In this document: piece after piece, positions 13,581 through 56,250 of the stretch
Numbering within the stretch: the first letter of the stretch is position 1
Layout: each line of letters begins with the position of its first letter
Assembly: GCA_003225555.1 (NCBI GenBank)
Contig: QIAM01000068.1
Span: 1 to 64,000, forward strand
DNA length: 64,000 bases
DNA from: Acidobacteriota bacterium
Lineage (GTDB): Bacteria > Acidobacteriota > Terriglobia > Terriglobales > Acidobacteriaceae
Reading direction: 5' to 3'
Notes under the pieces: generated by a model
What the model was told of the DNA's origin: nothing
Database searches by the model: none
Seen by the model: only the letters and a program-made list of their open reading frames with translations
Program-made: the position numbers and the translations under genes

Positions 13581-14658
13581 GCATCTACAAGCGCGGTGAA
13601 ATGTACTGGTACAAGTTCATGTGGAATGGCAAGACGGTGCGAGAGTCCACGAAGCAGGGGAATGACAAGGTTGCTCGACAGATGGAAGCCGCGCATCGCA
13701 CATCATTGGCAAAGGGCGAAGTGGGGATCCGCGAGAAGAAGCCCGCACCCTCACTGGCGAACTTCCTCAAGAATGATTTCGTTCCCTTCGTGAAAACGAA
13801 GCACGCAACCAAGCCCGGAACTGCGGAATATTACTCCGATGGTGCGAACATGGTTGGCAAGTGCGATTGGGCCTCAGAGCCTCTGGACAAGATCAGCGAC
13901 CAGCATGCGCAGCACTTCGCCGCTAAGTATGCTGCCCTCTCCGCCTCTCGCATCAATTGCGGCCTTCGCAGCGCCTTCGCCGCGCGCTCAATTTGGCTTT
14001 CGAGTGGGGGAAACTCGAACGGCCGGTGAAGATCACGCTGGCGAAAGGCGAACGGCAACGGGACACGGTACTTGCTGATGGCGACTGGGAGCGATATATC
14101 GTAGAGTGCCCTCAGCCTTGGCGTGATGCTGCCATTATCATTCGTGGCACAGGGATGCGCCCCGGCGAGGCGTTCGCTCTCCGGTGGGAGAACATCTATC
14201 TGAACGGTACAGGCGGGCTTATACAGGTCACAGAGGGCAAGACCAAGGCCGCTCGGCGTGTGCTGCCAATGGTCCCCGCCGTCTATGCGGCATTGAAGGC
14301 GAGACGAGAAAGGGCGGGAAATCCGGAAGGGGGCCGGCTGTTCCCCGCTTCCTCGCGGGAGGGACATTTCAACAAAGACACGGCCAAGGATCAGCACAAG
14401 CGCGCTCTGGACCGCGTCAATGCCAACGCGCAAGACAAGAGGGAACTCAAGCCCTTCCAGCCATACGTCCTGAGGCACACCGCCCTTACGCGACTAGCTG
14501 AGGCAGGCTGTGACGTGTTTACGCTGGCGCGCATCGCAGGACACTCCTCGATCACGATTACCCAGCGTTACGTTCACCCTCAGGCAGATGCGATTGAGCG
14601 GGCCTTCCAGAAGACGACGAAGGCAGCACTCCCCGCGCCTCCGACGGTGGGAGAGTAG
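13577..14658 (+). pseudogene. Tyrosine-recombinase integrase, frameshifted
   Basis: Phage-type site-specific integrase of about 360 residues, split by a -1 shift near 13975. The N-terminal part begins MSIYKRGEMYWYKF, an arm-binding domain usual in island integrases, and contains the SAM-like core-binding region. The second frame carries the whole catalytic domain: Arg in GTGMRPGEAFALRW, LRHTALTRLAE with the HxxR box, GHSSITITQRYVH with the second His and the Tyr nucleophile. The junction phrase INCGLRS, then LRRALNLAFEWGK, would read through if one base were restored. The tRNA-Leu gene lies 77 bases downstream. The shift could be real inactivation, programmed, or an error. Confidence 0.8.
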
Positions 14659-14735
14659 GCACAGCAAAAAACTGGGTGGACACAAAATTGGGCACAATAC
14701 CAAAGAGTACCAATCGGGGATCGGCACTAAATTGT

Positions 14736-14820
14736 TGGTGCGAAAGGGGGGACTCGAACCCCCACGGTTTTACCCGCCAGATCCTAAGTCTGGTGCGTCT
14801 GCCAATTCCGCCACTTTCGC
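14736..14820 (-). tRNA. tRNA-Leu (anticodon TAG)
   Basis: An 85-base class II tRNA with acceptor stem GCGAAAG/CTTTCGC, discriminator A and an encoded CCA (14736-14738 on the complement). The anticodon stem CCAGA/TCTGG encloses the loop CTTAGGA, with TAG as anticodon, which reads leucine CTA/CTN codons. The long variable arm and the T-arm GGTTCGAGTCC are present. Its 3' end faces the integrase gene, the usual geometry of an integration site. No second copy of the 3' end was found in the window. Confidence 0.92.
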
Positions 14821-24719: not shown

Positions 24720-25385
24720 TTACGGACCTAGGGTGCCTTCCACTGTCTCGGTGCCTGCAGGGGGAGTGAAGCGAAAGTGCTCGTCGGCAATCTGCACGTC
24801 TTCCTTCTGATCGGTAAGGCGATATTCCGTGACCGATCCGTCCACTTCGTTGATCACAATCCGTGCCAGCTGGTGGTCCGGGGTGACCTCCAGCAGGACT
24901 TCACTGACGCGGTCTTCCATGCCTTTGGGCAAACCTCGTAAGACAATGTCGCCCTCCCTCAGCGGCGAGATATCCGGCGCCAGCGAGAGTCCCTGCAATT
25001 CCTTCTCCAGCTTCGCTTTCCCGAGCAGGAAAGCCAGCGGAGAGCGCAGGTCGTCCAGCTTGCGTACGGGCGTCTTACGAGCCTGCCGGTCGCCGGGGAC
25101 ATAAAACCAGGCATCGTGGCCGTCGCTAACAAACAGTTTCTCTCTGGGAGAACGGTACTCCCAACGCATCTTGCCAGGTTTTTTCAGCCACAGCGTGCCC
25201 GACTCTGTGCGCTCCATGCCCGAGCCGCGGTAGAGCTCGGTGAACTCGGCTTGCAGGCTGCGCAGATGGTTGTAATGCTCGTCCACCGCGCGCGCTTCCG
25301 CCTTGATATCCGGCGCCGGGCTGGCGGCGACGCCGCGTGCCGACATCAGACAAGCTGCTAAGAGGAGATAGACACCGGATCGCAT
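24720..25385 (-). CDS. lolA: Outer-membrane lipoprotein carrier LolA
   Basis: Periplasmic chaperone that ferries lipoproteins from the LolCDE machine to the outer membrane. The 221-residue precursor has a signal peptide (GVYLLLAACLMSARGVAA). The mature domain shows LQAEFTELYRGSGMERTESG and LWLKKPGKMRWEYRSP, the most conserved LolA stretch, then FVSDGHDAWFYVPGDRQ. An in-frame ATG at 25466 lies before the signal peptide; the ATG at 25385 gives the correct precursor. A direct-repeat copy lies 62 bases upstream of the start. It supports an outer membrane in this organism. Confidence 0.9.
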   Translation of the reverse strand: MRSGVYLLLAACLMSARGVAASPAPDIKAEARAVDEHYNHLRSLQAEFTELYRGSGMERTESGTLWLKKPGKMRWEYRSPREKLFVSDGHDAWFYVPGDRQARKTPVRKLDDLRSPLAFLLGKAKLEKELQGLSLAPDISPLREGDIVLRGLPKGMEDRVSEVLLEVTPDHQLARIVINEVDGSVTEYRLTDQKEDVQIADEHFRFTPPAGTETVEGTLGP

Positions 25386-25446: not shown

Positions 25447-25531
25447 GGGGAGGAAACTGCGGGCAAGCTCCTGCGAGGGACTCCTGAAGCTATTGTAGCG
25501 AATGTGGAGTTCTTGCGGGGAAGTCATTCCC
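25447..25531 (+). repeat. 85-bp direct repeat, copy A
   Basis: Identical to 33526-33611 except for one missing G and one T/G change. It contains a nested hairpin: ACTCC with GGAGT, and inside it GCTA with TAGC around TTG. It lies between the NRPS stop and the lolA start. The rest of this 253-base gap shows nothing recognisable. Confidence 0.85.
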
Positions 25532-25638
25532 TGGGGACCGGAACCCCCCGCAAATGGGTGCCCTAATTTCTTCGTAAGCAACGACTGACAGAGAACGTAG
25601 GTCATAGACGCGCGGCTTCATCCTGGCAGTCCAGGAAC

Positions 25639-28600
25639 CTATTTCAGCCTGTGCCGCTGTGTCTTTCGTCCAACAGCATCTTCGATAAATTTTCTGGCTT
25701 CTTCTGCCGAAAGGCTTTTCAACTCGATGAGAAGCGCCTCATGTCTCGCATCCGCAGTGACGGCATGATGCCGAGGTTTGAAGATGGGAGTGCGCGCCTT
25801 CAGTCCCGCCGCTCGCGCCTTTTCCAACTCCACCGCCAACGCCGCAATCGTCGGCGCCTCGAACACACTCCGCACCGGCAATTCCACTTCAAACTTCCGC
25901 CGAATCCGCGCCATCATCAGCAGCGCCAGCAGCGAGTGCCCGCCCAGCTCGAAAAAATTCTGCTCGATCCCCACCTGTTCAAGTTTCAACAGCTCCCGCC
26001 AGATGTCTGCCAGCTTCGCTTCTATCTCATTCCGCGGTGCAATCAGCTCGTCTTCTTCCGGCAATACAGCGGCTGACGACGCAGCTAGCGCTCCACGGTC
26101 TACCTTGCCAGTAGACAGTAGCGGCAACTTTTTGACGTGCCTGTACGTAACTGGCACCATGTACTCCGGTAGCTTCGCCCGTAGATGGCGGCGGAGTTCG
26201 CCGGCCGACGGCACCGCCTGCCCTTCATTCACCACCACGTAGGCCGATAATTTCTCCTGTTCGCCCTCGCCTGTGATGATGACTACTGCTTCCTGCAACG
26301 TCGCGTGTGAAGCCAGCACCGACTCGATTTCCCCCAGCTCAATGCGGAAGCCGCGCAGCTTCACCTGGTTGTCCACCCGCCCCAGGTACTCAATCGCCCC
26401 ATTGGATCGGAAGCGGCCTAAGTCACCCGTGCGATACATCTTGTCGGAGTGCTTCCTTCCCATCCGGTTTCGAACGAACTTTTCCGCCGTCAACTCTGGA
26501 CGGTTTAGATAGCCGCGCGCCAGCCCGTCGCCGCCGATGAAGATCTCTCCGGCGACATTTACCGGCACCGGGTTTTGATTGGAGTCCAGTATGTAGACCG
26601 AGGTGTTCGCCATGGGACGGCCGATCGGGATCGAGCCCTCCTCCTGGCCAGTCACGCGATACACCGCGGACCAGACCGTGGTCTCGGTCGGGCCATAGAC
26701 ATTCCACAGCGATTTGCCGCGACCGATCAGTTCACGGGCGAGCTTCGCCGGAAACGCTTCCGCACCGCAAATAATCTTGAGATCTGGCGAACCTTGCCAC
26801 CCGGCTGCGAGAAGCAGCCGCCACGTGGCCGGGGTGGCCTGCATAAACGTAACCCCGTTCTTACTTATCAAGTCCCTGAGCCGGTTGCCATCGACCGCAT
26901 CTTCCAAGCTCCCAATCACCATACGCGCTCCCGAGATCAAAGGAAGATACATCTCAGGGGTGGCCATATCGAATGAAATGATCGCCAGCGCGAGCAGGAC
27001 GTCGTGGCAATTCATGCCGGGTTCACGCTGCATGGAACGAAGCAGGTTGACTACGCTCCCATGTTCGATCAGCACTCCCTTCGGTCTCCCGGTTGAGCCC
27101 GAGGTATACATCACGTAGGCCAGGGTTTGCGAGCTGAGCTTCTGATTTGGGTTCTCTGTATTCTCTTGGGCGATGACGTTCCAATCCGAATCCAGAAGAA
27201 CCGTGTCAGCCCCAAAAACACCGCGCTGCATCTTCTGTTCCGTGAGCACCAGCCGCGGCTTGACGTCCGCCAGCATGAAGCTCAGCCGGTCGTCGGGCAG
27301 CCTCGGATCAAGCGGCACATAGGCTCCCCCGGCCTTGAGAATGCCGAGCAAAGCGACCATCATCCCCGGTCCGCGGTCGAGGCACATAGAGACGGGGACT
27401 TCAGGTCCTACGCCGCGCTTCAGCAGGTACCGGGCCAGCTGATTGGCGCGCTGGTTCAGTTCGCGATAGCTCAGCTCCTGATTTCCGGCAACTACGGCCA
27501 CGGCGTCAGGCGATTGCTCAGCCTGTATTTCGAATAACTCGTGAATACATGGCTGCGGGTGATCGCGGGAATAGTCCGTCGCCGTCCGATTCCACTCCAC
27601 CAAGACCTGCTCCCGCTCCTGCTCACTCAGGATCGGCAGTTGGGCCAACGGAAGGTCAGGGTTCTCCACCGCGGCCTGGATCAGCGTTTCAAAGTTTCCG
27701 AGCATCCTCAGGATTGAGGATTGCTCGAACAGATCGGTGTTGTATTCGAACCGGCAGTGGAGCTCCGTGTCCTCCCACACTTCCAGAGTCAGGTCAAACT
27801 TGGCGATGCTGGTCTCAAAATCCATCTCCTTGATGCTGAGTCCGGAAATCTCGAAGACCTGCTTGGGAATGTTCTGGAGGATGAACATCACCTGGAACAG
27901 CGGAGGCGTATCAAGGGAACGCTGCGGGACCAACTCCTCGACCAGTTTCTCGAAGGGCAGTTCATGATGCATGTACGCTTCCAGCGCATACGAGCGCACC
28001 TGGCGAATCAGATCGCGGAAGCTCAGATTGCTCGCGAAATCCGTGCGGAAAACAAGAGTATTCACGAATAACCCGATCATGTCTTCCAGTTCGACTTCGT
28101 TGCGCGCCCCAATCGGTGTCCCGACCAACATGCTTTCCTGGCGGGTGTAGCGCCAGAGCAAGGCCTTGAATGCAGCCATCGCCACCATGAACAGCGTGGC
28201 GTTCTCGCTCTGCGCAAGTAATTTCAGCCTGGCTAAAGTGGCGACATCCAGGCTGATCTGCTCACTAGCGCCGTGCCAGGTCTGGAGAGGCGGACGCGGA
28301 TGGTCGGTGGCGAGTTCAAGTAAAGTTTGCGCTCCGGCCAGTGTCTTCTTCCAGTGCTCAACTTCCTTGCTGAGCACCTCTCCGCTCATGTATTCCCGCT
28401 GCCATTGCGCGTAGTCCGTGTACTGAATCGGACCTTCGGGAAGCTCCGACTCTTTATTCTCCAGAAAGGCGGCGTAGCACTTCGTCACATCACTGAACAA
28501 CCGGGAAAGCGACCAGCCGTCCGTAATGATATGGTGCATGACGATCAGCAGGAGCCAGCTTTGCGGTCCCAATCGAACCAGAAGTGTGCGGAGCAATGGC

Positions 28601-31600
28601 CCTTCCCGCAAGTCAAACGCTTTCTTGGCCTCCTCGCTGGCAATGCGAAGCGCCTCGGATTCGCGCTTCTTTGCAGGAACCTCGCTAACATCGATGATGG
28701 GGATCTTGACATCCAGATCCGGCAACACCACCTGCCTGGTCTCACCCTCGACAGAGTCGAACACCGTACGCAGCGAGGCATGCCGCTGTACGACCGCATG
28801 GAAAGCCCGGGTCAGGACATCGACATTCAGCGGGCCCATGATCCGCAAGACGCGAGACATGTTGTAAGTGCCGGTTCCGGGCTCGAACTGGTCGAGAAAC
28901 CACAGTCTCTCCTGCGCAAAAGAAGCCGGGAACGCCTGCCGACCCGTCGCGTCCGCGCTGTAGCGACGCCGGAGGATCGGAGCCCGCACTTTCAGTCCCG
29001 TGGCTTGCGCTTTCTCCAACTCGAGCACCAATGCCGCAATCGTCGGCGCCTCGAACACACTCCGCACCGGCAATTCCACCTCGAAGGCTCGACGAATGCG
29101 CCCCGTCATCTGCAGCACCAGCAGCGAGTGCCCGCCCAGTTCGAAAAAGTTCTGCTCGATCCCCACCTGTTTGACGTGCAACAGCTCCAGCCAGATGTCC
29201 GCCAGCTTCGCTTCTATCTCGTTCCGCGGAGCAATCAGCTCGTCTTCTTCCGGCAACGCAGGGCCTGACGACGCAGTTAGCGCCTCGCGGTTTACCTTGC
29301 CACTGGGCAGCAGCGGAACTCTTTCAATCCGCCAGTACCCGGCCGGCACCATGTATTCCGGTAGCTTCGTCCGTAGATACCGGCGGAGCTCTCCAGCGGA
29401 CGGCGCCACCTCCCCGTCATTCACCAGGACGTAGGAGCACAGCTTTTGCTGTTCACCCTCGCCCGTCACGGTGACCACGGCTTCCCGCAACGTCGCGTGC
29501 GAAGCCAGCACCGACTCGATCTCTCCCAGCTCAATCCGGAACCCGCGCAGCTTGACTTGGCTGTCCACCCGGCCCCGATACTCAATCTCGCCATTGGAAC
29601 GGAATCGGCCCAGGTCTCCGGTGCGGTACAAGCGAGCAGATTTCGGAACCAGGCAACTGGCAACGAAGCGCTCCGCGGTCAACTCCGGACGGTTTAAATA
29701 CCCGCGCGCAAGGCCGTCGCCGCCGATGTAGACCTCTCCCGTGACATTTATCGGCACAGGGTTATGTTGGGAATCCAATATGTAGATCGATGTGTTTGCA
29801 ATGGGGTGGCCGATAGGGATCGAGGCGTCCTCTCGGCCAGTCACGCGATATGCGGTAGACCAAATCGTAGTCTCGGTCGGGCCATACACGTTCCACACGG
29901 ATTTGCTACGAACGATTAGTTCGTTGGCGAGTTCCCGCGGCAGCGCCTCCCCACCAGACAGAATCTTGAGATCTGGCGAACCTTGCCACCCGGCTTCGAA
30001 AAGCAGCCGCCACGTGGCGGGAGTCGCTTGCATAAAGGTAGCCCCGCTCTTACTCAATAAATCCATGAGCCGGTTCCCGTCGACCACATCTTTCGAGTCC
30101 GCAACTATCAGACGCGCTCCTGAGATCAAAGGAAGATACATCTCAAGTCCCGCAATATCGAACGAGAGTGTCGTCACCGCGAGGAGTACGTCCTCGCGAC
30201 TCAGGCCGGGCTCGTGCTGCATGGAACAGAGCAGGTTGACCACACTGCGATGCTCAATCAGCACCCCCTTCGGCCTACCGGTTGAGCCGGACGTATACAT
30301 TACGTACGCCAGCGTCTGCGGACTGAGCTTTTTGTTGGGGCTCTCTTTACTCTCTTGGGCAATGACCGTCCAATCGGAATCGAGGAGAACCGTTTCTGCC
30401 CCGAAAACACCACGCTGCAGGTTCTGTTCAGTGAGTACGATGCGCGGCCTGACGTCCGCCAGTATGAGGCTTAGCCGGTCGTCGGGCAGCTTTGGATCCA
30501 GCGGCACATAAGCTCCGCCGGCCTTCAGAATGCCAAACAGAGCGATCACCATCGTCGGTCCACGGTCAACGCACAAACCGACGGGAACCTCAGGTCCTAA
30601 GCCGCGTTTCAGCAGATACCTAGCCAGCTGATTTGCACGCTGGTCCAGTTCGCGATAGGTGAGTTCCTGCTTTCCTGCTATCACGGCTATGGCGTCAGGC
30701 GAACGCTCAACTTGCGATTCGAACAGCTCGTGAATACATGGCCCGAGGTGATCGCGAGAATAGTCCACCGCAGTCCGATTCCACTCCACCAGGACCTGCT
30801 CCCGCTCCTCAGGGCCCAGGATCGGCAGTTGAGCTAAGGGAAGGTCAGGGTTTTCTAGCGCCGCTTCGATCAGCCTTTGAAAGTGTCGGAGCATCCGCTG
30901 CATCGTGGAGTGCTCGAAAAGATCGGCGTTATATTCGAACCGGCAATGGAACTGACCGTCGTCGCCCTCCCACACTTCGAGAGATAGGTCGAACTTGGCG
31001 ATGCCAGTCTCAAAATCAATCTCCTTGATGCTGAGCCCGTGAATCTCGAAGACCTGCTTGGGAGTGTTGTGGAAAGTGAACATCACTTGGAACAGTGGAG
31101 ACGTGTCGAGCGAACGCTGCGAGACCAACTCCTCAACTAGTTTCTCGAATGGCATATCCTGGTGCATGTACGCTTCCAGCGCAAACGAGCGTACCTGACG
31201 AATCAGATCGCGGAAGCTCAGGTTGCTCGCGAAATCCGCGCGGAAGACCAGAGTATTCACGAATAACCCGATCATGTTTTCAACTTCGACATGGTTGCGC
31301 GCCCCAATTGGTGTACCGACCAGAATGCTTTCCTGATGGGTATACCGCCAGAGTAAGGCCTGGAATGCGGCCATCGACACCATGAACAGCGAGGACCTTT
31401 CGTTCTGCGCAATCGATTTCAGCTTGGCCAAAGTGGCGCCATCCAGGATGACGTCCTTATTAGCACCGTGCCAGCTGTGCCACGTATGGGTAGTCGGACG
31501 CGGATGGTCAGTAGGAAGCTCGAGCAGGGTTTGCGCTCCGGCCAGCGTGTTCTTCCAGTGTTCGACTTCCTTCCTTAGCACCTCACCGCTCATGTACTCC

Positions 31601-32151
31601 CGCTGCCACTGCGCGTATTCCGTGTACTGAATAGGAAGTTCGGGAAGCTCTGGATCCTTATTCTCCCCGAACGCCGCATAACACGTCGTCACCTCGCGCA
31701 AAAGACGCGAAACCGACCAGCCGTCAGTGATGATATGGTGCATGACCAGCAACAGGATCGAGGTTTCCGGACCCAGCCGAAACACCACTACGCGGAACAG
31801 TGGCCCTTCACTCAAGTCAAATAGTCTCTTGCTTTCCTCGCTCGCAATGCGAAGTGCCTCGGATTCGCGCTCTCCCTCTGGAATCTTGGTTAGATCGATG
31901 ATGGGGACCTTAACATCCAGGTCCGACAACACCACCTGTCTGACCTCATCATCGACAGAGTCAAAGACGGTACGCAGCGTGGCATGCCGTTGTATGGCGG
32001 ACTGGAAAGCCCGGGTCAGGAAATCGACATCTAGCGGACCGATGATCCGGTAGACGTAAGGCAGGTTGTAAGCGGCGGTTCCTGCCTCGAACCGGTCGAG
32101 AAACCATAGTCTCTGCTGCGCGAACGAAGCTGGGAACGCCGCTCGACTCAT
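25639..32151 (-). CDS. Bimodular non-ribosomal peptide synthetase (C-A-PCP-C-A-PCP)
   Basis: 2170 residues. Domains in order: condensation 1 (1-440, HHIITDG at 138-144), adenylation 1 (470-960, core YTSGSTGRPKG near 620, YGPTE near 756, YRTGD near 842), carrier 1 (LGGHSL with Ser1009), condensation 2 (1071-1505, HHIITDGW), adenylation 2, carrier 2 (LGGHSL with Ser2073) and a 90-residue tail rich in helix (ELKSLSAEEARKFIEDA). There is no thioesterase, reductase, epimerase or MbtH domain. Both condensation domains look LCL-type. Reading the specificity pocket by eye gives D-I-L-Q-I-S-V-I-W-K for module 1, which shares six of ten residues with a known glycine code, and D-M-P-Q-I-C-V-V-W-K for module 2. 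Release and product are unknown. Confidence 0.95.
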   Translation of the reverse strand: MSRAAFPASFAQQRLWFLDRFEAGTAAYNLPYVYRIIGPLDVDFLTRAFQSAIQRHATLRTVFDSVDDEVRQVVLSDLDVKVPIIDLTKIPEGERESEALRIASEESKRLFDLSEGPLFRVVVFRLGPETSILLLVMHHIITDGWSVSRLLREVTTCYAAFGENKDPELPELPIQYTEYAQWQREYMSGEVLRKEVEHWKNTLAGAQTLLELPTDHPRPTTHTWHSWHGANKDVILDGATLAKLKSIAQNERSSLFMVSMAAFQALLWRYTHQESILVGTPIGARNHVEVENMIGLFVNTLVFRADFASNLSFRDLIRQVRSFALEAYMHQDMPFEKLVEELVSQRSLDTSPLFQVMFTFHNTPKQVFEIHGLSIKEIDFETGIAKFDLSLEVWEGDDGQFHCRFEYNADLFEHSTMQRMLRHFQRLIEAALENPDLPLAQLPILGPEEREQVLVEWNRTAVDYSRDHLGPCIHELFESQVERSPDAIAVIAGKQELTYRELDQRANQLARYLLKRGLGPEVPVGLCVDRGPTMVIALFGILKAGGAYVPLDPKLPDDRLSLILADVRPRIVLTEQNLQRGVFGAETVLLDSDWTVIAQESKESPNKKLSPQTLAYVMYTSGSTGRPKGVLIEHRSVVNLLCSMQHEPGLSREDVLLAVTTLSFDIAGLEMYLPLISGARLIVADSKDVVDGNRLMDLLSKSGATFMQATPATWRLLFEAGWQGSPDLKILSGGEALPRELANELIVRSKSVWNVYGPTETTIWSTAYRVTGREDASIPIGHPIANTSIYILDSQHNPVPINVTGEVYIGGDGLARGYLNRPELTAERFVASCLVPKSARLYRTGDLGRFRSNGEIEYRGRVDSQVKLRGFRIELGEIESVLASHATLREAVVTVTGEGEQQKLCSYVLVNDGEVAPSAGELRRYLRTKLPEYMVPAGYWRIERVPLLPSGKVNREALTASSGPALPEEDELIAPRNEIEAKLADIWLELLHVKQVGIEQNFFELGGHSLLVLQMTGRIRRAFEVELPVRSVFEAPTIAALVLELEKAQATGLKVRAPILRRRYSADATGRQAFPASFAQERLWFLDQFEPGTGTYNMSRVLRIMGPLNVDVLTRAFHAVVQRHASLRTVFDSVEGETRQVVLPDLDVKIPIIDVSEVPAKKRESEALRIASEEAKKAFDLREGPLLRTLLVRLGPQSWLLLIVMHHIITDGWSLSRLFSDVTKCYAAFLENKESELPEGPIQYTDYAQWQREYMSGEVLSKEVEHWKKTLAGAQTLLELATDHPRPPLQTWHGASEQISLDVATLARLKLLAQSENATLFMVAMAAFKALLWRYTRQESMLVGTPIGARNEVELEDMIGLFVNTLVFRTDFASNLSFRDLIRQVRSYALEAYMHHELPFEKLVEELVPQRSLDTPPLFQVMFILQNIPKQVFEISGLSIKEMDFETSIAKFDLTLEVWEDTELHCRFEYNTDLFEQSSILRMLGNFETLIQAAVENPDLPLAQLPILSEQEREQVLVEWNRTATDYSRDHPQPCIHELFEIQAEQSPDAVAVVAGNQELSYRELNQRANQLARYLLKRGVGPEVPVSMCLDRGPGMMVALLGILKAGGAYVPLDPRLPDDRLSFMLADVKPRLVLTEQKMQRGVFGADTVLLDSDWNVIAQENTENPNQKLSSQTLAYVMYTSGSTGRPKGVLIEHGSVVNLLRSMQREPGMNCHDVLLALAIISFDMATPEMYLPLISGARMVIGSLEDAVDGNRLRDLISKNGVTFMQATPATWRLLLAAGWQGSPDLKIICGAEAFPAKLARELIGRGKSLWNVYGPTETTVWSAVYRVTGQEEGSIPIGRPMANTSVYILDSNQNPVPVNVAGEIFIGGDGLARGYLNRPELTAEKFVRNRMGRKHSDKMYRTGDLGRFRSNGAIEYLGRVDNQVKLRGFRIELGEIESVLASHATLQEAVVIITGEGEQEKLSAYVVVNEGQAVPSAGELRRHLRAKLPEYMVPVTYRHVKKLPLLSTGKVDRGALAASSAAVLPEEDELIAPRNEIEAKLADIWRELLKLEQVGIEQNFFELGGHSLLALLMMARIRRKFEVELPVRSVFEAPTIAALAVELEKARAAGLKARTPIFKPRHHAVTADARHEALLIELKSLSAEEARKFIEDAVGRKTQRHRLK

Positions 32152-32515
32152 CTCTTAATCCCTTGCAGGGTTTTGGTAGTGTTGATCTGGTAGGGCTCTG
32201 AACACAACGCTCGAGGTTAATTGTCTCACAGAGGTTGGCTCTGATTCTGCTTTCATGCACGAGCGTCACAACCACGGATGCGGGCGTCTGCCACGAGCCC
32301 GCACAATTTGAGGAGCAAAAACCAGAGACTAAAGACTCCAAAAAACCAGGGGTGCGTCCTTAACGTCGGACCGGCCAATTTGCTACGGGAGATTCCTATC
32401 CAGAACTCTTGTAAGGTGGTAAGAAGGAGCAATGATTGGGCGGACCAAAAACGGCGGGAACCGGCTTCCGGCCCTTCTCATCTGCAACTTTCCCGACGTC
32501 AAGAACCCAAAAGAC
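32152..32515 (-). other. 364-base gap with the NRPS leader
   Basis: Holds the NRPS upstream region. An AAGGGA ribosome-binding sequence precedes the NRPS ATG. An isolated GGAGCA-ATG at 32425-32434 on the + strand opens a frame that runs antisense to the next gene and is not accepted as a gene. I see no tRNA, riboswitch or clear promoter. Confidence 0.4.
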
Positions 32516-33334
32516 TCAGTAGTGCGGCAGCGAGGTGCGGTTCAATGCCGCAAGAATCAGCGTTCCCGCGTAGGCGTTATCCACGGCCACCGAAGTCGTG
32601 AAAGTCATCCCCGTTCTCCAGCTCGCCGGGGCCTCAGCGTGCACGCCCGAGAGAATGACCCATCCCTTTCCAGAGCTGCCCTCGACAATGGCCGGGGTAC
32701 TGTCCGGATATTTGCCCACGATGCTGCCCCATCCGGAAAACTGCGGGCCGTCCTGCCAGTACTGGTCAAGTTTGCCACTGTTGGGGCTGGAAATTTCAAC
32801 CGCCGTCTTTTTTATGCCGTTGCCGTAGTTGTTATAGACGTTGAACCATACTCCCGATGTGAGATTCAGCCCGTTGTAGGTCGAATAACCACCGAAGAAT
32901 CCCCCAGCGCAGATGCCCAAATAGTGCAAGCCGTCGTTGATCACCGCGTTGTGGATGTTGGTCGTGGTGCTCGACTTGAGATTGTTGCCGATGGTAATTG
33001 AGTTTCCGCCTGGAACAATCAACAGCTTGTAGCCTTTCAGCGTGGTCTCGGACATGCCGTTGAGTTGCGAGGAATTCGCTGTCGAGTAACTCAAATTGTT
33101 GGCACCCAGAATTGTCTCGACCGCAGACACACAGGAGGCGCATGTACCTGTCCCGTTGAATAGAAGGATGGACGCTGTGGTCGACGAGTTCAGCGGCACG
33201 GCTGCGGCTTTCGCAGGCATCCCCACAGTGGTGTGTGGAGTTCCGCAGGCGGTAAAGGCGACTGGAAGAAGGGCCGCCAACACAATAATTAGAACTCGTT
33301 GTAGTTTATTAGCAGGCGTGACAGATGCGAGCAC
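32516..33334 (-). CDS. Lipoprotein with BPL_N/glutamine-amidotransferase-like fold
   Basis: 272 residues. The N-terminus is a lipoprotein signal with lipobox-like LPVAFTAC, followed by a Ser/Ala/Pro linker. The globular part resembles the biotin-protein-ligase N-terminal (BPL_N) class of amidotransferase-like proteins: ASILLFNGTGTCASCVSAV at the start, KLLIVPGG and the nucleophile-elbow phrase YLGICAGGFFGG, then GWVILSGVHAEAP. The Cys in the elbow is present, but no catalytic His-Glu pair can be assigned with certainty. A GTG start with GAGGGGG upstream is used. It lies upstream of the NRPS in the same direction, 364 bases away, inside the same pair of direct repeats. Its role is unknown. Confidence 0.7.
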   Translation of the reverse strand: MLASVTPANKLQRVLIIVLAALLPVAFTACGTPHTTVGMPAKAAAVPLNSSTTASILLFNGTGTCASCVSAVETILGANNLSYSTANSSQLNGMSETTLKGYKLLIVPGGNSITIGNNLKSSTTTNIHNAVINDGLHYLGICAGGFFGGYSTYNGLNLTSGVWFNVYNNYGNGIKKTAVEISSPNSGKLDQYWQDGPQFSGWGSIVGKYPDSTPAIVEGSSGKGWVILSGVHAEAPASWRTGMTFTTSVAVDNAYAGTLILAALNRTSLPHY

Positions 33335-33525
33335 GATACCCCCTCAAAGCTAGTTTTTTGGCTGCTACCGACAGATACGTGTCAGCGGACATGCTGGGAA
33401 TCCGCTGAACCCGAACGAAGACAAAGTTGGCTTATTTCTTATTATTTTAGACAGCCATAGGGAAAAGGAAAGTCACAGTAGTACAGGGGGCAGCAACGCA
33501 GAAGTACATGTTGGGGACGAGCGAA

Positions 33526-33611
33526 GGGGAGGAAACTGCGGGCAAGCTCCTGCGAGGGGACTCCTGAAGCTATTGTAGCGAATGTGGAGTGCTTGCGGGG
33601 AAGTCATTCCC
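33526..33611 (+). repeat. 86-bp direct repeat, copy B
   Basis: Second copy of 25447-25531 in the same orientation, 8.08 kb away, bracketing the NRPS and the amidotransferase-like lipoprotein. It lies 67 bases after the stop of the beta-helix gene and 192 bases before the start of the lipoprotein gene. The remaining bases of the 33335-33677 gap show no gene. Confidence 0.85.
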
Positions 33612-33677
33612 ATCGACCGCAGCGCCGTCGCGCAATCGGTCGCAAAGCCTAAGTCGTGCAGTCAGCGGCGCAGCCGC

Positions 33678-35417
33678 TCAGGGAAAGTTCGTCACCTTCG
33701 GCGTCACCCGAGGATGGATCGCGGCTGCCTCGCCCGTGTCGTTGATCACATGACTGATTTCGCCGTGATCACCCAGCGCCACGGTAATCATGTCGTGGAA
33801 GCGTACACTCGGGCTCTTCGGCGTCTCGATTGCCCGGGTGAGCACTACATTCGGATAAATGAAGACGCTGTAAATGCCCAGCCCCCACGCCTCATGACTG
33901 GTCACTCCATTCGCAACCTTGTATGAGGCCCAGCCGTTCACTCCCGCCGCACTGGTATAGCTCGGCTGGTTGGGAGGATCGTAAGGAATCTCGGACTGAT
34001 AAAAATAAGTGCGCCCGCCATTGCCCTTCCACAGAACCTGGAATTGCTGGTGATGCTCAACAAACAGGCCGTAGATCGTGACCTGGTTTCCATTCACTAC
34101 CAGCCCGTTCTCGCTGGTGTTCAGCTCCCAGCCCACGCCGTCGCCATGGTCCGCTCTCCAGATCCAGGTATGGTCCACGAGCGTATCGTTGCTGTTGATC
34201 CTCAGATTCACCTTGGCCCGGCCCACTGCTGCGCCGCCCACGCGAAAGAAAACATCGTGCAGCGTGATCGGGTCCTTCGCGTGGCGCGCCCGACTTCCCT
34301 CCGGCCCCACCTCGAGCAGCACCGGAGACTCGCTCGGCCCCGCATCGAAGAGCAGCCCCGCAATCTCGATCCCGTCCGCATCGGCAGTCGTCATCGCCGG
34401 CGTTCCCTTCATCGGACGTAGCGTCGCAAACCCAAGCCCCAGCACCACTGTATGCGGCCGGGTCACGCGAATCGGAGCAGTTAATTCGTAGATCCCCGGT
34501 GTCAAAATCAGGTTCTTGCCTCGGGAGAGCTGCGCATTGATCGTCTCCGCAGTATCCACATCCGGGCGCGCGATATAGAACCTTTCAATTGGAATCGTCT
34601 CTCCCGCCGTTTCACCGCCGCGCCACGTAATCCCGACACTGTCGCTGTGCAGACCCGGAACCCGCACGCTGAACTCGCCCGCAGCATTTACTTGCAGGAA
34701 CGGCTTCTCCCGCACCACGGGTGTCTGCGCGATCGTCGTGTACGGCGGCGAAGGCCATGCGCCTTCCGGCGGATGCACCACGCCGACAAACGCCATGTTC
34801 CAGTTCGACCCCGTCCAGCTCTTCCAATCGCAGTTGCGCGAGATCCACTGCTGCTGGCTGCCGGAGTCGACCTTCCCGTCCACAAGCGAATCCGACATCC
34901 AGCCGCCGCTCGCCCAGCCACGCTTCTGGTGCAGCACCAGGTCGCCGCGCACGTGCATGCGCCGCAGCGAGACAGCCTGCGAGACCGCCCACTGCATGGT
35001 GCCACCCGCCGGCACGACAGAGAACCCTTCCGCAGCTCTCCAGAAGGTGGTCGTCGCATTGTTGTGCTCATGATTCGCATCCGCGTGCACGTTGCCCGAA
35101 ATCCGCGTGGCATCGGGCGACGCACCCAGCCCTATCATCTCGGTGTAGAAGCCCACCGGCACGTCCACCGAATAGTTCCCGGGCAGGAACAACAGCGCAT
35201 TCCGTTGCGGCCCGAACTCGTTGTGCTCCTGCGTTGAATACACCGCATCGATCTGTTTCTGGATCGCCTGCGATGGCATCGACGAATCGAAGATCAGCAC
35301 ATTGGGTCCGAACGCCGGCTTCGCGCCTTTGGCCGCAAGCGCGGGCAGAGCCGCTGCGAGCAGCCCCGCCGCGAAGCCCAACCGTCTTAGAAGCTGAAAC
35401 GCGCGCCTAGCAGACAT
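33678..35417 (-). CDS. Secreted right-handed beta-helix protein (pectate-lyase-like fold)
   Basis: 579 residues with a signal peptide (LLRRLGFAAGLLAAALPALAA). The rest reads as a parallel beta-helix: VLIFDSSMPSQAIQKQID near the start (typical of pectate-lyase-3/exo-polygalacturonase-like caps), LILTPGIYELTAPIRV, TVVLGLGFATLRPMKG, IEIAGLLFDAG and LVDHTWIWRADHGDG. Proteins like this in soil bacteria are often named adenylyl cyclase or coagulation-factor-like without proof. A polysaccharide- or glycan-binding/cleaving role outside the cell is likely from the fold. No catalytic residues can be named. It is a lone gene. Confidence 0.75.
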   Translation of the reverse strand: MSARRAFQLLRRLGFAAGLLAAALPALAAKGAKPAFGPNVLIFDSSMPSQAIQKQIDAVYSTQEHNEFGPQRNALLFLPGNYSVDVPVGFYTEMIGLGASPDATRISGNVHADANHEHNNATTTFWRAAEGFSVVPAGGTMQWAVSQAVSLRRMHVRGDLVLHQKRGWASGGWMSDSLVDGKVDSGSQQQWISRNCDWKSWTGSNWNMAFVGVVHPPEGAWPSPPYTTIAQTPVVREKPFLQVNAAGEFSVRVPGLHSDSVGITWRGGETAGETIPIERFYIARPDVDTAETINAQLSRGKNLILTPGIYELTAPIRVTRPHTVVLGLGFATLRPMKGTPAMTTADADGIEIAGLLFDAGPSESPVLLEVGPEGSRARHAKDPITLHDVFFRVGGAAVGRAKVNLRINSNDTLVDHTWIWRADHGDGVGWELNTSENGLVVNGNQVTIYGLFVEHHQQFQVLWKGNGGRTYFYQSEIPYDPPNQPSYTSAAGVNGWASYKVANGVTSHEAWGLGIYSVFIYPNVVLTRAIETPKSPSVRFHDMITVALGDHGEISHVINDTGEAAAIHPRVTPKVTNFP

Positions 35418-35504
35418 GAGTCCCTATTGAAGTCCCTACTGACACCGAAGGCATTATTGCTCAGAAATCCAACTGGTGCGAGAGAGGCGATTGGCCCTTA
35501 GGGG

Positions 35505-36446
35505 TTACGGTGCGCTGGATTCCGCGGCTCCATCATCATGGGAGCGGGAAAAAACTAGCGAGACTCCGAATGTTTTTCCGCCGACGATCGGGGAGAACGT
35601 GACATAGTTCCGGGATGAAGCAGAGCGGTGGTTGTACACGTAGCCGCCGATGAGATAGCCCACCGCACCGCCCACCAACACATCACTGGGGAAATGCTCG
35701 CGTCCACCGACGCGCGCTGCGGCGGTCGCAGCCGCCAGGCTGTACACGGCCAGCTTGATCTTCCATCCAGGATATTCGTCGGCTATGACGTGAGCGAATG
35801 CGAAAGCCATCGCGGTGTGTCCGGAAGGAAACGAATCGCCGCCTGAATAGTGCCGGCCATCGGGCCAGAACTCACCGGACTCAGGGAAGGGGCCAGTTGC
35901 CTTCGGTCGCACGCGGTTCGTGCCGAACTTTACTAGGCTGGTGAACAGCATGGTGTCAACGAGTGCCTCGGCGCCCAGCACTCCGGTTTCGCGCAAATGG
36001 TCATTGTGGGTAAAGGTGCCCGCCATCCAGGTAGTTCCAATCGTTGCCAGAGGCACGTAGAGACCGGTGAAATTCGAGGTCTGCCGAAAGGCATTGACCT
36101 GAGAGGGGTCGGTGCTCACGCGATCTAGCGTCTTGTGATCGAAGGCGAAGGCGGCGCCTGTAGCGGCTGCGAGGGGCGCGAGCCAGAGGAGGTCCTTCTT
36201 GTGCATGCGGAACGGGCTGGTCAGGATGCCGGTCTGGTCCCTGGCAATCTCGATAGCGCACCGGCCAGGCGCACTGAACGCACAGCTGTCCTGGGGCATG
36301 GAGACTTGCTGAGGCACAGGGTCTTGCTGAGGCGCCGGAGCTTGCTGGGCGAAACAGCCGAGAGGAATCAACCAAACGAGGGTGAATCGCAGGAAACGGG
36401 CACACGAGCGCCGCTGATTGGGCTGCAACCGCAAATGGGAATTCAT
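35505..36446 (-). CDS. PAP2-superfamily phosphatase
   Basis: 313 residues, membrane or periplasmic. A signal/anchor helix (FLRFTLVWLIPLGCFAQQ) is followed by a Pro/Gln-rich stretch, then the PAP2 domain with its three motifs: KFGTNRVRP, the PSGH box in GDSFPSGHTAMAF, and ARVGGREHFPSDV with the catalytic His. Such enzymes dephosphorylate lipid phosphates such as undecaprenyl pyrophosphate or phosphatidic acid. The open frame reaches 36620, but the ATG at 36446 (MNSHLRLQ) fits a membrane-targeted start best. Confidence 0.88.
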   Translation of the reverse strand: MNSHLRLQPNQRRSCARFLRFTLVWLIPLGCFAQQAPAPQQDPVPQQVSMPQDSCAFSAPGRCAIEIARDQTGILTSPFRMHKKDLLWLAPLAAATGAAFAFDHKTLDRVSTDPSQVNAFRQTSNFTGLYVPLATIGTTWMAGTFTHNDHLRETGVLGAEALVDTMLFTSLVKFGTNRVRPKATGPFPESGEFWPDGRHYSGGDSFPSGHTAMAFAFAHVIADEYPGWKIKLAVYSLAAATAAARVGGREHFPSDVLVGGAVGYLIGGYVYNHRSASSRNYVTFSPIVGGKTFGVSLVFSRSHDDGAAESSAP

Positions 36447-36560
36447 CACTGCTTGGGACCTGGGAGGAAGATTGAGAATACTTTGACATAACAATACCGA
36501 TAATTCAGACCGGGCGCAAGCGAAAGGCCCGGCCGGTGCGGACCTTGGTTCCTTTTGAGA

Positions 36561-36667
36561 GACGTCATTCCGAACTCGGCACAGTTCGGCGGGATGAGGG
36601 GATTTTTTCAAAGGCGTCATCGTGACCGCAGCCGCCGTTCAGGCGGAGGGAAGGATCTCGCGCGCAC
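36561..36667. repeat. Dispersed intergenic repeat (copy 1)
   Basis: GCGTCATCGTGACCGCAGCC, then TTCAGGCGG-AGGGAAGGATCTCGCGCGC. Its second half matches the complement of 44668-44723 at about four of five bases, and its first half resembles 61550-61610. The whole 36447-36739 gap holds no gene. Confidence 0.6.
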
Positions 36668-36739
36668 AGGCAGTGCGTCTCGGGAAGATTACATGCGATA
36701 TCCAACCTGCCGATTCCCGTGCGCCCGCGACGTAATGTA

Positions 36740-37480
36740 TCAAGTTGGCTGGCTTGCGTAAGCAGAGTACTGCTCAGCCCCGGCGATCTTTCGGAGCACC
36801 GGACTCTCCAGCACCACGTTCTCAAGCAAAGGGTTGTGATAGAGCACATAGACCGGCCGCGGATTGTGGCGCAGGCTTTCCGTCAAGTTCACGATGAGCC
36901 TCCGGAGGCCGGCATCCGGGAGTGGGTGGAACAAATAGACGACCGTAGGCTGGGCGGGGAAACGGAAGTTCGTTGCATCGTCGCAGATCGACTGCAAGAC
37001 ATGGCATTTCTGCGATTCGCTCTGATACTTGCTGATGTTCTCGAGCGCGATCTGGTGCAGTGAAGGAAGAAGTTCGATCCCGACGATGCGGCGAAAGGGA
37101 TAGTCCGACGCCATTAACAATGTCCGCCCTTTGCCCGATCCAAGATCGACGAAGAGGAAATCGCGATAGTCGATGCGTGTCTGCTGTTGCAATCCCTCCA
37201 ACATCTCGTGAAACACCGCAGGTTCTGTGGGCTGGTAGGACGAGTGAAACTGTCCCACGAGACGCTCGCGCCATCCTACGGCGCCGCTGGTGGTATTGAC
37301 GCGATGATTCCAATCGTAGTCGGCGTCGCCATAGCGCTGGCGGCGGCGTTCAGGCGTGGAGTCGCGGGCGAACTCCCACAGGGCGGCCAGAAATTGCCGA
37401 GCCGCGGCCAGATGGCCGTGACGTGAGGCTACATCACTCCACCATCGTCGACCTGCGCCGAAAATGCTGACTTGCACCAA
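36740..37480 (-). CDS. Class I SAM-dependent methyltransferase
   Basis: About 246 residues. The SAM-binding motif I is FLFVDLGSGKGRTLLMA, followed by the acidic loop in IVGIELLPSLHQIALENI and motif IV-like VVYLFHPLPD. This arrangement (GSGKGR, FHP) is shared with small methyltransferases of unknown substrate in soil bacteria. No ATG is available: TTG at 37480 or GTG at 37477 would start the frame and neither has a ribosome-binding site, so the real start could lie downstream near MLEGLQQQT. Confidence 0.75.
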   Translation of the reverse strand: MVQVSIFGAGRRWWSDVASRHGHLAAARQFLAALWEFARDSTPERRRQRYGDADYDWNHRVNTTSGAVGWRERLVGQFHSSYQPTEPAVFHEMLEGLQQQTRIDYRDFLFVDLGSGKGRTLLMASDYPFRRIVGIELLPSLHQIALENISKYQSESQKCHVLQSICDDATNFRFPAQPTVVYLFHPLPDAGLRRLIVNLTESLRHNPRPVYVLYHNPLLENVVLESPVLRKIAGAEQYSAYASQPT

Positions 37481-40340: not shown

Positions 40341-40856
40341 CTAGTTCAGGGCGTTGAGGCCAGAGCACGCGGCCCAGCTGGCAACCAGCGTGATGTTGCC
40401 GGGAGGCTGAATGCGCACGACTGCATCCTGAATCGAGCAATAGGCGCGAGTCCCCAAAGTGTTGGCGAGCGGCGTGCCGGTGGAAAAAAACTGATCGTTC
40501 ATCGGGCTTCCGGCCGAGGCCGACCCCGTGGCGTTGAAATAATAGCCACTCTTGCCGTTGCTGCCGGCAATCGCCGTGGCCAGATTGTTATCGATCAGGC
40601 AACCTGCGGCTGGTGATGGAACGCACGGTGCCACACCACCAAGTGTAGCCAGATTCGCCGGAAAACCGATCGCGGGATAAGTACTGTAATACGCCACTTC
40701 CGCCGTGTTGATGCTCCGAATCGAAGACACTGCGGACGAGTCATTGGCAGCCATCCGCGCCCGCATCAAGTTCGGGATCGCGATAGCCGCGATTATGAGA
40801 ATGATCGCCACCACGATTAACAGCTCGATAAGTGAGAAGCCGTTTTGTTTCCTCAT
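40341..40856 (-). CDS. pilA: Type IV major-type pilin (PilA-like)
   Basis: 171-residue class IVa prepilin. A short basic leader MRKQNG is cleaved before Phe (FSLIELLIVVAIILIIAAIA), with Glu at +5 of the mature chain. The conserved AIPNLMRARMAANDSSAV helix end is followed by a variable C-terminal domain with the disulfide-type cysteines (CVPSPAAGC and CSIQD to AAC). Intact, unlike the two downstream paralogues. It has a sigma-54-type promoter 81 bases upstream of the ATG and an 8-bp hairpin (40304-40325) after the stop. Assembly would use the PilB/PilC machine encoded 16 kb away. Confidence 0.93.
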   Translation of the reverse strand: MRKQNGFSLIELLIVVAIILIIAAIAIPNLMRARMAANDSSAVSSIRSINTAEVAYYSTYPAIGFPANLATLGGVAPCVPSPAAGCLIDNNLATAIAGSNGKSGYYFNATGSASAGSPMNDQFFSTGTPLANTLGTRAYCSIQDAVVRIQPPGNITLVASWAACSGLNALN

Positions 40857-41197: not shown

Positions 41198-41667
41198 TTA
41201 GTTGTTCATGGGGTTAAGACCGAAGCACGCCACGCGGCTAGCGACCAGCGTGATCGTACCCGCGGCCTGGGTGCGGATCACGCCATCATCCCCCGCGCAA
41301 TACGCCTTGGTACCGGTCGTGTTGGCCAACGGAGTCGCGGTGGTGTAGAAGTTGAAGCCGGTCGCAGCCGCGCCGCCGGGTGTGGCAGCAAAGCTGTAGC
41401 CAGACTTACCAGAGCCAGCCGGCGTACCGTTAGCGGCCAGGTTATTGTCGATCAGGCAGCCGTTCGCTGGCGCCGGAACGCAAGGAGCAGCTGCTCCGCC
41501 CAACGCAGCCAGAGCTGTGTAGCCAACCGTGGGATAAGAACCGCAGACGAGTCATTGGCTGCCATACGCGCGCGCATCAGGTTCGGAATTGCGATGGCTG
41601 CAATGATCAGAATAATTGCGACCACAATCAGCAGCTCAATTAGTGAAAACCCCCTCTGTTTCCGCAT
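41198..41667 (-). pseudogene. Type IV pilin 2, frame broken by an internal deletion
   Basis: From the ATG at 41667 the prepilin part is perfect (MRKQRG, then FSLIELLIVVAI to MAANDSSAV). After that the frame runs into LIPRLATQLWLRW and stops at 41452. The proper C-terminal domain (SYPTVGYTALAALGGAAAP to FGLNPMNN) continues in another frame to 41198. By alignment with pilin 1, about 46 bases (the SSIRSINTAEVAYYS-like segment) are missing. The C-terminal domain has the two cysteine pairs. It keeps a sigma-54 promoter and a terminator, so loss must be recent or an artefact. Confidence 0.8.
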
Positions 41668-42032: not shown

Positions 42033-42508
42033 CTAGTTGTTCATGGGGTTCAAGCCCAGGCAAGCGTTGTAGCTCGCAACCAGGGTGATGGTACCAGCAG
42101 CCTGGGTGCGAACCACACCGTCATCCGCAGCGCAATACGCCTTGGTACCGGTCGTGTTGGCCAACGGAGTCGCCGTGGTGTAGAAGTTGAAGCCGGTCGC
42201 AGCCGCGCCGCCGGGTGTGGCAGCAAAGCTGTAGCCAGACTTACCAGAGCCAGCCGGCGTACCGTTAGCGGCCAGGTTATTGTCGATCAGGCAGCCGTTC
42301 GCTGGCGCCGGAACGCAAGGAGCAGCTGCTCCGCCCAACGCAGCCAGAGCTGTGTAGCCAACCGTGGGATAAGAAAAGCGGCCGCAGACGAGTCATTGGC
42401 TGCCATACGTGCGCGCATCAGGTTCGGAATCGCGATAGCTGCAATGATCAGGATGATTGCCACCACGATCAGCAGCTCAATTAGTGAAAAACCCTTCTGT
42501 TTCCGCAT
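42033..42508 (-). pseudogene. Type IV pilin 3, frame broken at the same place
   Basis: Prepilin from the ATG at 42508 (MRKQKG, FSLIELLIVVAI to NDSSAAAF), then the same out-of-frame run LIPRLATQLWLRW. The C-terminal domain in the other frame ends CLGLNPMNN at 42033. About 40 bases are missing by comparison with pilin 1. The junction differs from that in pilin 2 only by six extra bases (AAGCGG on the + strand). A 246-base tract next to the junction is identical to pilin 2 but for one base, while the rest shows several silent differences. Confidence 0.8.
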
Positions 42509-52353: not shown

Positions 52354-52570
52354 TCGGGCCTCCAGCGGTTGGACGTACGTGTTTGGACGCATCAGCAGGG
52401 CAGAAGTTTGAAAGTACGTGGAGGCAAGGCAGCTTGTCAAACGCTGGTCAAACCATGCTTGTCAAACCAGGATTGCCCGGTTCTGCGGGCACGGAGACGG
52501 TCTTTTAAGTATGGTCCCGTATTTTGCTTCGCATGAGCTTTCAGGCACAATGCGGGCTGGAGCGTACGCG

Positions 52571-53635
52571 ATGGATTCGGTGATTGAGGTCCAGGGCAAG
52601 CATCTGAAGCTGTCGAACCTCGAGAAGGTCCTTTACCCGGCTACTGGCTTCACCAAGCGCGATGTCATTGACTACTACGTGCGCATTGCGCCCGCGATCC
52701 TTCCCCACCTTTCCGGACGCGCGTTGACCATGAAGCGCTATCCGAACGGAGTGGATGGCGAATTCTTCTACGAAAAAAACGCTCCCAAGCACCGGCCCGA
52801 GTGGGTCAAGACCGTGCCGGTGTGGAGCCACGGCAATAATCGCACCATGCACTATGTCGAGGTCAGCGATCTGCCGACACTGATCTGGCTGGCGAATCTG
52901 GCGGCTTTGGAGTTGCATCCCTCGTTGGCGCTCGCCAGGGATGTTAGCTGTCCGACGATGATGGTCTTCGATCTCGATCCCGGGCCGCCGGCGAATATCG
53001 TGCAGTGTTGCCAGGTGGGCCTGTGGCTGCGCGAAATCTTCGAGCATTTTGGATTGCAGGGCTTTCCCAAGACCTCGGGTTCTAAGGGGTTGCAGATTTA
53101 CGTCCCGTTGAACACACGCACAACCTATGAAGTGACGAAACCTTTCGCGCATGCGTTGGCGCAACTGCTGGAGCAGGATCATCCGGACCAGGTTGTGTCG
53201 GACATGAAGAAGAAGATTCGCACTGGCAAGGTCTTCGTGGACTGGAGTCAGAATGACGAACACAAAACAACCGTCGCGCTGTATTCGCTGCGAGCGCGCG
53301 AGCGCCCCACTGTTTCGACTCCTGTGAGCTGGGAAGAAGTCCAGCGGGCGCTTAAGAAGAAAGACTCAAGCCTTCTGGTGTTTGAAGCGCCCCAAGTAGT
53401 GGCGCGCTTTGAGAAGATGGGCGACCTGTTCGAGCCGGTGCTGGAGATGAAACAGAAGCTGCCGACGTTGAAAGAACTGACGGGGGCGGTTGCTGCGCCA
53501 GGGGAGGCTCCCGAGCCGGAACGAATCGAGATCGCAGCACGGGCAGAAGATCAGCCCGCGAGAGCTGCGCGAGAGAAACCGAAACGAAGTGTGGGACGAA
53601 CAGCTGCATCAGGGCGAATCCGTCGCAAGGTATAA
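52571..53635 (+). CDS. ligD: LigD-type DNA polymerase domain (NHEJ), stand-alone
   Basis: 354 residues of the archaeo-eukaryotic primase-like polymerase that is one domain of LigD. Motifs: LSNLEKVLYPATGFTK at the start, the first catalytic Asp pair in VFDLDPGPP, FPKTSGSKGLQIYVP, and VDWSQNDEHKTTVALYSLRARERPTVSTP. The last 70 residues are Ala/Glu/Arg-rich and probably disordered. No ligase, phosphoesterase or Ku gene lies in the window. It would fill gaps at broken ends with ligase and Ku from elsewhere. The ATG at 52571 has a GGAG eight bases upstream. The longer open frame from 52418 is rejected. Confidence 0.92.
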   Translation: MDSVIEVQGKHLKLSNLEKVLYPATGFTKRDVIDYYVRIAPAILPHLSGRALTMKRYPNGVDGEFFYEKNAPKHRPEWVKTVPVWSHGNNRTMHYVEVSDLPTLIWLANLAALELHPSLALARDVSCPTMMVFDLDPGPPANIVQCCQVGLWLREIFEHFGLQGFPKTSGSKGLQIYVPLNTRTTYEVTKPFAHALAQLLEQDHPDQVVSDMKKKIRTGKVFVDWSQNDEHKTTVALYSLRARERPTVSTPVSWEEVQRALKKKDSSLLVFEAPQVVARFEKMGDLFEPVLEMKQKLPTLKELTGAVAAPGEAPEPERIEIAARAEDQPARAAREKPKRSVGRTAASGRIRRKV

Positions 53636-55119: not shown

Positions 55120-55275
55120 CAAGTATCAGAAGTGTGGTTACAAGGCGGCTCGCCGTTTGTTTGCTACCGGCTGGTGATGCTGCAAACAGGAGAGGTTGGC
55201 CGCTCAGCGATTCCTGCGGCACCCGCCTCGTCACTTCTCTCAAGGTCCGATAACGCGCATACTGATTCCCTGCTA

Positions 55276-56250
55276 ATGGCCTCCGAAGCCAACTCCCGTG
55301 TCCTCTCCAGCTTTCTCGACTACCTCAGGATCGAGAAGGGGCTCGCGCCGCTGTCTGTCAGCGCTTACACGACCGACGTTCGCCAGTTTGCGGAGTTTCT
55401 GGAAAAACATAAACGCACGCTGCCCAATGCGCGGCGCACCGATGTACGCAAATTTTTGCAGCAGCTTTTTTCTTATCAGGTCGACGGGCGTAGCGTGGGG
55501 CGAAAGCTTTCGGCCCTGCGTCACCTTTACCGCTATCTGCTGCTCGACAAGAAGATCAATCACGATCCCACGCTGAACATCGACTCGCCCAAGCAGTGGA
55601 AGGTCTTGCCGAAGTCCCTGGCTCGAGACGAAATGGACGCAACGCTGGCAGCGCCTCTCAAGCGCCTGACAGCTCCCGCACGTCAGACGAAGACATCCTT
55701 AGAGCTTGCCGTGCGGGATCGCGCCATGCTGGAGGTCTTCTACGCCGGAGCGCTGCGGGTTTCGGAAATCATCAATACCAAGCTGGAAGATCTGAAACTC
55801 GAAGCCGGATACATGCTGGTGCGGGGCAAGGGGGACAAAGAACGCGTGGTGCCGCTGGGAAGATCCGCGCAGGATGCGCTGCGAGAATATCTGGTGCAGG
55901 CGCGACCGACTCTGGCAGCGGCAAAACAGACTGTGTCACCCAGAAGCACTGCGACTGCGGCAAGAAGTTCTCCCCTGCTGTTCATCGCCCGGGGAGCACG
56001 CAAGCTGACACGGCAGCGCGTGTGGCAGATGGTGCGGGCGGCGTCCGCTGTGTCGGGACGGAAGGCATCGCCACACATGCTGCGCCATTCCTGTGCCACC
56101 CACATGGTGGAGAACGGCGCTGATTTGCGCACGGTACAAATCATCCTCGGTCACGCCGATATCTCGACAACCCAGGTTTATACGCATCTGGCGCTGGATC
56201 GGCTGCGGACCGTTTATCGGAAGCACCATCCGAGAGCGAAGACGAGATGA
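55276..56250 (+). CDS. xerD: Tyrosine recombinase, XerD-like
   Basis: 324 residues. The N-terminal SAM-like core-binding domain ([19 protein letters not shown]) is followed by the catalytic domain with Arg in [11 protein letters not shown], a Lys in [12 protein letters not shown], the HxxR box in [26 protein letters not shown] and the Tyr nucleophile in QVYTH. It overlaps the next gene by four bases (ATGA). A longer open frame from 55132 lacks a sensible start; the ATG at 55276 gives the family-like beginning. Probable chromosome-dimer resolvase subunit, though a mobile-element origin cannot be excluded. Confidence 0.88.

Follow-up and report, generated by a model that had tools for sequence, protein, structure and literature searches.

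A probable insertion scar upstream of lolA: an 85-bp direct repeat around an NRPS unit in an Acidobacteriota genome

Anatomy of the locus and of the repeat pair

The window analysed here is a stretch of 64,000 nucleotides from the assembly of an Acidobacteriota bacterium (GCA_003225555.1, contig QIAM01000068.1), which is probably metagenome-derived. Its central part holds an NRPS gene and a BPL_N gene, enclosed by two near-identical repeats, R1 and R2, and followed on one side by the lipoprotein carrier gene lolA. The features are the following:

24720-25385, minus strand: lolA, outer-membrane lipoprotein carrier (Pfam LolA)
25447-25531, minus strand: R1, 85 bp, promoter- or leader-like element lying 61 bp ahead of the ATG of lolA, the resident lolA copy
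25492-25497, minus strand: -10-like TACAAT in R1, with a putative promoter role
25532-33525, minus strand: unit of 7,994 bp inserted between the repeats and missing from the orthologous site in relatives; right edge fixed by the C71 paralog
25639-32151, minus strand: bimodular NRPS (C-A-T-C-A-T, no thioesterase)
32516-33334, minus strand: BPL_N (amidotransferase-like) gene with a lipoprotein-like N-terminus
33335-33525, minus strand: region upstream of BPL_N, conserved also in the paralog of contig C71 as far as the edge of R2
33526-33611, minus strand: R2, 86 bp, derived copy of R1, upstream of BPL_N and the NRPS and oriented to them as R1 is to lolA
33572-33577, minus strand: -10-like TACAAT in R2, with a putative promoter role
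33612-36739, minus strand: further stretch absent at the site in relatives, with a 579-aa gene (33678-35417) and a PAP2 gene (35505-36620)
36740-37480, minus strand: methyltransferase-like gene, the neighbour of lolA in relatives and its presumed ancestral upstream neighbour

A sequence-only reading of this stretch had described two near-identical direct repeats of 85 and 86 bases, 8.08 kb apart and with two differences, which enclose only the NRPS and the amidotransferase-like lipoprotein gene. Alignment and gene content bear this out: R1 and R2 are 97.7% identical over 86 columns, in direct orientation, and their differences are a single substitution and an additional base in a G/C run. Their edges are sharp, since identity falls to chance level (0.20-0.35) over 10-80 bp on either side, and shuffled sequence yields essentially no matches of this kind. 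A different direct repeat, of 475 bp (91.8%), lies at 41199-41667 and 42034-42508, near a pilin-like gene (40341-40856); G014 and G005 carry similar direct repeats at a comparable distance along the collinear locus (L065 13782-15843, L066 13436-14908).

As had been noticed for the window, there is no third copy of R, and none was found in the rest of the 4.42-Mb assembly either (114 contigs, 86% complete). In a draft of this kind, joins at repeats are a known error, and the pair could in principle be an assembly artefact. However, R1 and R2 differ at two places, and the contig is coherent on both sides, with local orthologues, which makes such an artefact very improbable.

A conserved element upstream of lolA

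A DNA search with R over 45 genomes of the genus returned partial matches in four of them (G005, G014, G018 and G025), all four between lolA and its neighbour gene, at loci that are collinear with the window over 20.0-25.3 kb and then over 36.8-40 kb. The lolA upstream regions were compared at 30 loci of the genus, and the 15 elements that were aligned have the same layout when read on the lolA strand, namely ATGACA, ~17 nt, (GG)CTTACAAT, and a leader of the form GGAGT...GGAGCNTGCCC...TCCC. This succession of ATGACA, a spacer of about 17 nt, TACAAT (invariant in the 15-row alignment) and a conserved leader amounts to a promoter-and-leader layout in the relatives.

A sequence-only model built from the lolA-upstream elements, with strong matches defined by an E-value of 1e-9 or lower, found one strong match in each of 14 other species, every one of them adjoining lolA and on the lolA strand, and two in the window's own genome (G000) only. 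Thirteen of these 14 species supplied sequences to the model, and their lolA matches are therefore expected; the informative results are that these genomes contain no comparable second site, and that G024, which lies outside the model, also matches at lolA. Elsewhere in the genus, the sequence upstream of lolA is either too diverged to be recognised or occupied by something else.

R1 lies at the orthologous position upstream of lolA and has -10- and -35-like boxes. Since the element is single-copy at lolA in 14 other species, R1 is the resident lolA copy. Conservation, position and boxes together suggest that R serves lolA as promoter and 5' leader, and a regulatory function, one of the two roles first proposed for the repeat, is probable for this conserved and putatively active element. 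The promoter activity of R1 and R2 themselves is nevertheless uncertain, because an 8-bp insertion stretches their box spacing beyond the ~17 nt of the relatives, and because a generic promoter scan calls no sigma-70 site in either copy on the lolA strand.

These 8 bp (CTTCCCCG, lolA strand, as aligned) lie between the boxes in both R1 and R2 and in no aligned relative. Since the two copies share an insertion unseen in the relatives, R2 was copied within this lineage, as a duplicate of its own element. On the lolA side, R1 has a flank like the one in G025 (AGTC.GC following CTCC), and R2 does not. The outer flank of R2 could not be matched to an ancestral one, because the sequence there is not conserved and carries another insertion. 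The duplication looks young relative to the split from the G025 species, since R1 and R2, with one substitution and one indel, differ far less than the same locus does from G025 (about 81-86% identity).

The second role proposed for the repeat, that of a mobile sequence, did not hold up: in the relatives the element occurs once per genome, at the orthologous site before lolA, and a mobile or dispersed repeat was rejected on the searches of genome and genus. Presence at many unrelated sites, the outcome that the sequence-only reading had set against itself, did not occur; R was found in two copies in its own genome and in one per relative. This genome does hold a truly dispersed intergenic repeat of ~65 bp (GTCATGCTGAGCG...GAAGCATCCCTAC), often in inverted pairs and with 24 matches over many contigs, for instance at L071 (contig C13, 10265-10498 and 18152-18351), near another BPL_N paralog. 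Being intergenic as well, R might be thought a repeat of this sort that lies around the NRPS by coincidence; however, it is unrelated to the ~65-bp repeat, occurs just once, linked to lolA, in each of 14 other species, and has its only two copies in this genome at R1 and R2, so that a coincidence is hardly credible.

Each copy had also been said to contain a nested hairpin. Folds do exist, with z-scores of -0.9 to -1.6 against shuffles for the single strands and a consensus energy of -0.14 kcal/mol for the aligned elements, and they carry no weight here, because they hardly beat the shuffles and are not conserved in the relatives. A structured RNA leader or riboswitch was rejected on the same weak z-scores and unconserved fold, and on the lack of any Rfam match at R1 or R2.

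The inserted unit and the variability of its site

The two NRPS modules, of ~3.19 kb each, are 75% identical in protein, against ~58-62% identity to paralogous single-module proteins, which are found in clusters of the same genome (L070) and of G020 (L072). The two-module state apparently represents a lineage-specific module duplication. Three genes stand between the NRPS and BPL_N both in the paralogous C71 cluster and in G020, on the strand opposite to both; one encodes a C-T-thioesterase protein and the other two an ABC transporter pair. All three are missing from the unit of the window, where the 364 bp that separate BPL_N from the NRPS showed no traces of transporter or thioesterase genes. 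Because these genes are missing, the unit may be a trimmed or partial cluster. This weakens the "metabolite unit" of the sequence-only reading, since the NRPS/BPL_N pair between the repeats may be an incomplete one.

Upstream of BPL_N, the similarity to the C71 paralog runs to 33525 and ends exactly where R2 begins, which fixes the inner right edge of the unit at that base. This upstream region may carry the gene's own promoter.

A plasmid source was set aside for the unit, being represented by short NRPS-domain matches only, and foreign base composition was rejected with a unit GC of 0.545-0.604 per kb, like that of the flanks. As for a transposon or insertion sequence, the 20-40 kb stretch contains no inverted repeats with a length of at least 30 bp, and the unit has no transposase gene. 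The idea that long repeats generally accompany paralogous NRPS/BPL_N loci, as a common mechanism, was rejected: no repeats of at least 30 bp at 85% identity were found at L069, L070, L072 or L073, and the repeat pairs at L071 are those of the dispersed ~65-bp repeat, which is unrelated to R.

The gap between lolA and the methyltransferase-like gene varies widely across the genus. By match positions it measures ~187 bp in G005, G014 and G018 and 191 bp in G004; it reaches 209 bp in G023, 266 bp in G039, 308 bp in G022 and 437 bp in G020, and extends to ~2.2 kb in G044, ~5 kb in G025 and ~11.3 kb in the window. The single-copy repeat without the unit, which the sequence-only reading had proposed to look for in related genomes, is found in G005, G014 and G018, empty sites with one element and no NRPS. 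Our searches found no second genome with the NRPS unit at lolA. The repeats as edges of an inserted NRPS unit are supported by these sites, with the correction that the stretch absent in relatives is larger and also takes in 33.6-36.7 kb.

The spot upstream of lolA has taken up inserts repeatedly. In G025, other genes are inserted and a single element is kept beside lolA; these genes have no detectable similarity to the PAP2 or 579-aa proteins of the window. Homologues of the 579-aa gene, with ~85% identity in DNA, occur in other species of the genus, in mostly unshared surroundings and with similarity that stops close to the gene edges; the gene seems to move on its own, as a single gene.

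Origin of the duplicated element

The outer flanks of the pair lead from R1 to lolA and from R2 to the 579-aa gene, and the inner flanks are the ends of the unit; this geometry is that of an insertion in which a target of 85 bp was duplicated. The account that we favour as probable is that R is the lolA promoter or 5' leader and that the NRPS and BPL_N genes were inserted upstream of lolA, with duplication of the 85-bp element upon insertion. In what we infer to be a single event, the gene pair would have entered the lolA upstream region and the element would have been duplicated, R1 staying with lolA and R2 being placed before the new genes in the same orientation.

Two routes are the leading options for the duplication: break repair with fill-in, where the long overhangs of a staggered break would be filled in before joining, and the homologous integration of a circle carrying the element. 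End joining with filled-in overhangs would be possible in principle, since the genome encodes Ku and a LigD primase-polymerase gene (52418-53635). The unit contains neither an integrase nor a transposase. As in target-site duplication, the insert is flanked by direct copies of one resident sequence; however, ordinary transposases usually duplicate ~2-14 bp, for which 85 bp is far too long, and no transposase is seen in the unit. Literature searches, judged by titles and abstracts, brought up nothing directly on an 85-bp duplication of this kind.

A variant of the favoured account differs in the route of entry: a circle or transformed DNA in which the lolA element and the NRPS unit were already together would have integrated by one homologous crossover. 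Ordinary RecA recombination would produce the same anatomy, with outer and inner edges as observed. Nevertheless, this variant needs a donor with the unit beside a lolA element of this lineage, and none was found; moreover, 85 bp of homology is short for efficient RecA-mediated integration. We regard it as possible, though rather unlikely.

The repeats could also be read as the attL and attR sites of a site-specific integrative element, with the lolA upstream region as attB and the integrase lost or acting in trans. Their length, their direct orientation and their place at both ends of an 8-kb insert resemble the attachment sites of islands; tyrosine recombinases are numerous in the genome, and three are encoded in the window; and the unoccupied relatives have a single attB-like element, which fits a plain duplication equally. 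However, no integrase lies between or beside the repeats, the nearest being at 13957-14658 (~11 kb from R1) and 55132-57146 (~21.5 kb from R2), and the target is a putative promoter region, not a tRNA gene. In addition, no second copy of the element occurs in the other genomes searched, even though several hold other inserts there, so that only G000 has two and no second occupant carries the repeat, and related genes elsewhere in the same genome lack such repeats. Taken together, these points make attachment sites improbable.

Regarding the recombinase genes themselves, those at 55132-57146 form an overlapping tandem pair that encodes XerC/XerD-like tyrosine recombinases and lies behind the LigD primase-polymerase gene and a DUF72 gene. 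The integrase-domain gene at 13957-14658 (plus strand) lies beside a tRNA-Leu (14736-14820, minus strand), and 13957-14820 is possibly the end of an integrative island.

Returning to insertion with duplication of the lolA element, lolA would likely have kept its promoter, and the new operon would have gained a second possible one. This recalls promoter duplication or capture by rearrangement, in that the copy of a housekeeping promoter-like element lies before another operon and points the right way; it departs from such cases in that a conserved upstream region of its own seems to belong to the new operon. RecA recombination between R1 and R2 could possibly delete the unit cleanly, and the removal or duplication of the unit that the sequence-only reading had proposed would be possible by this means. 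That the operon follows lolA expression through the copied promoter, while lolA keeps its own and the repeats allow clean loss in the population, has only a small chance of being correct.

Overall, the locus looks like a real and largely explained insertion scar, a one-off and not a new kind of element. It provides a resolved and probably recent case of a gene-cluster fragment set before a housekeeping gene of lipoprotein trafficking, which stayed joined to its upstream element; the filled site and the empty one can both be seen. In addition, a conserved upstream element of lolA has been identified in this genus of Acidobacteria and is open to testing.
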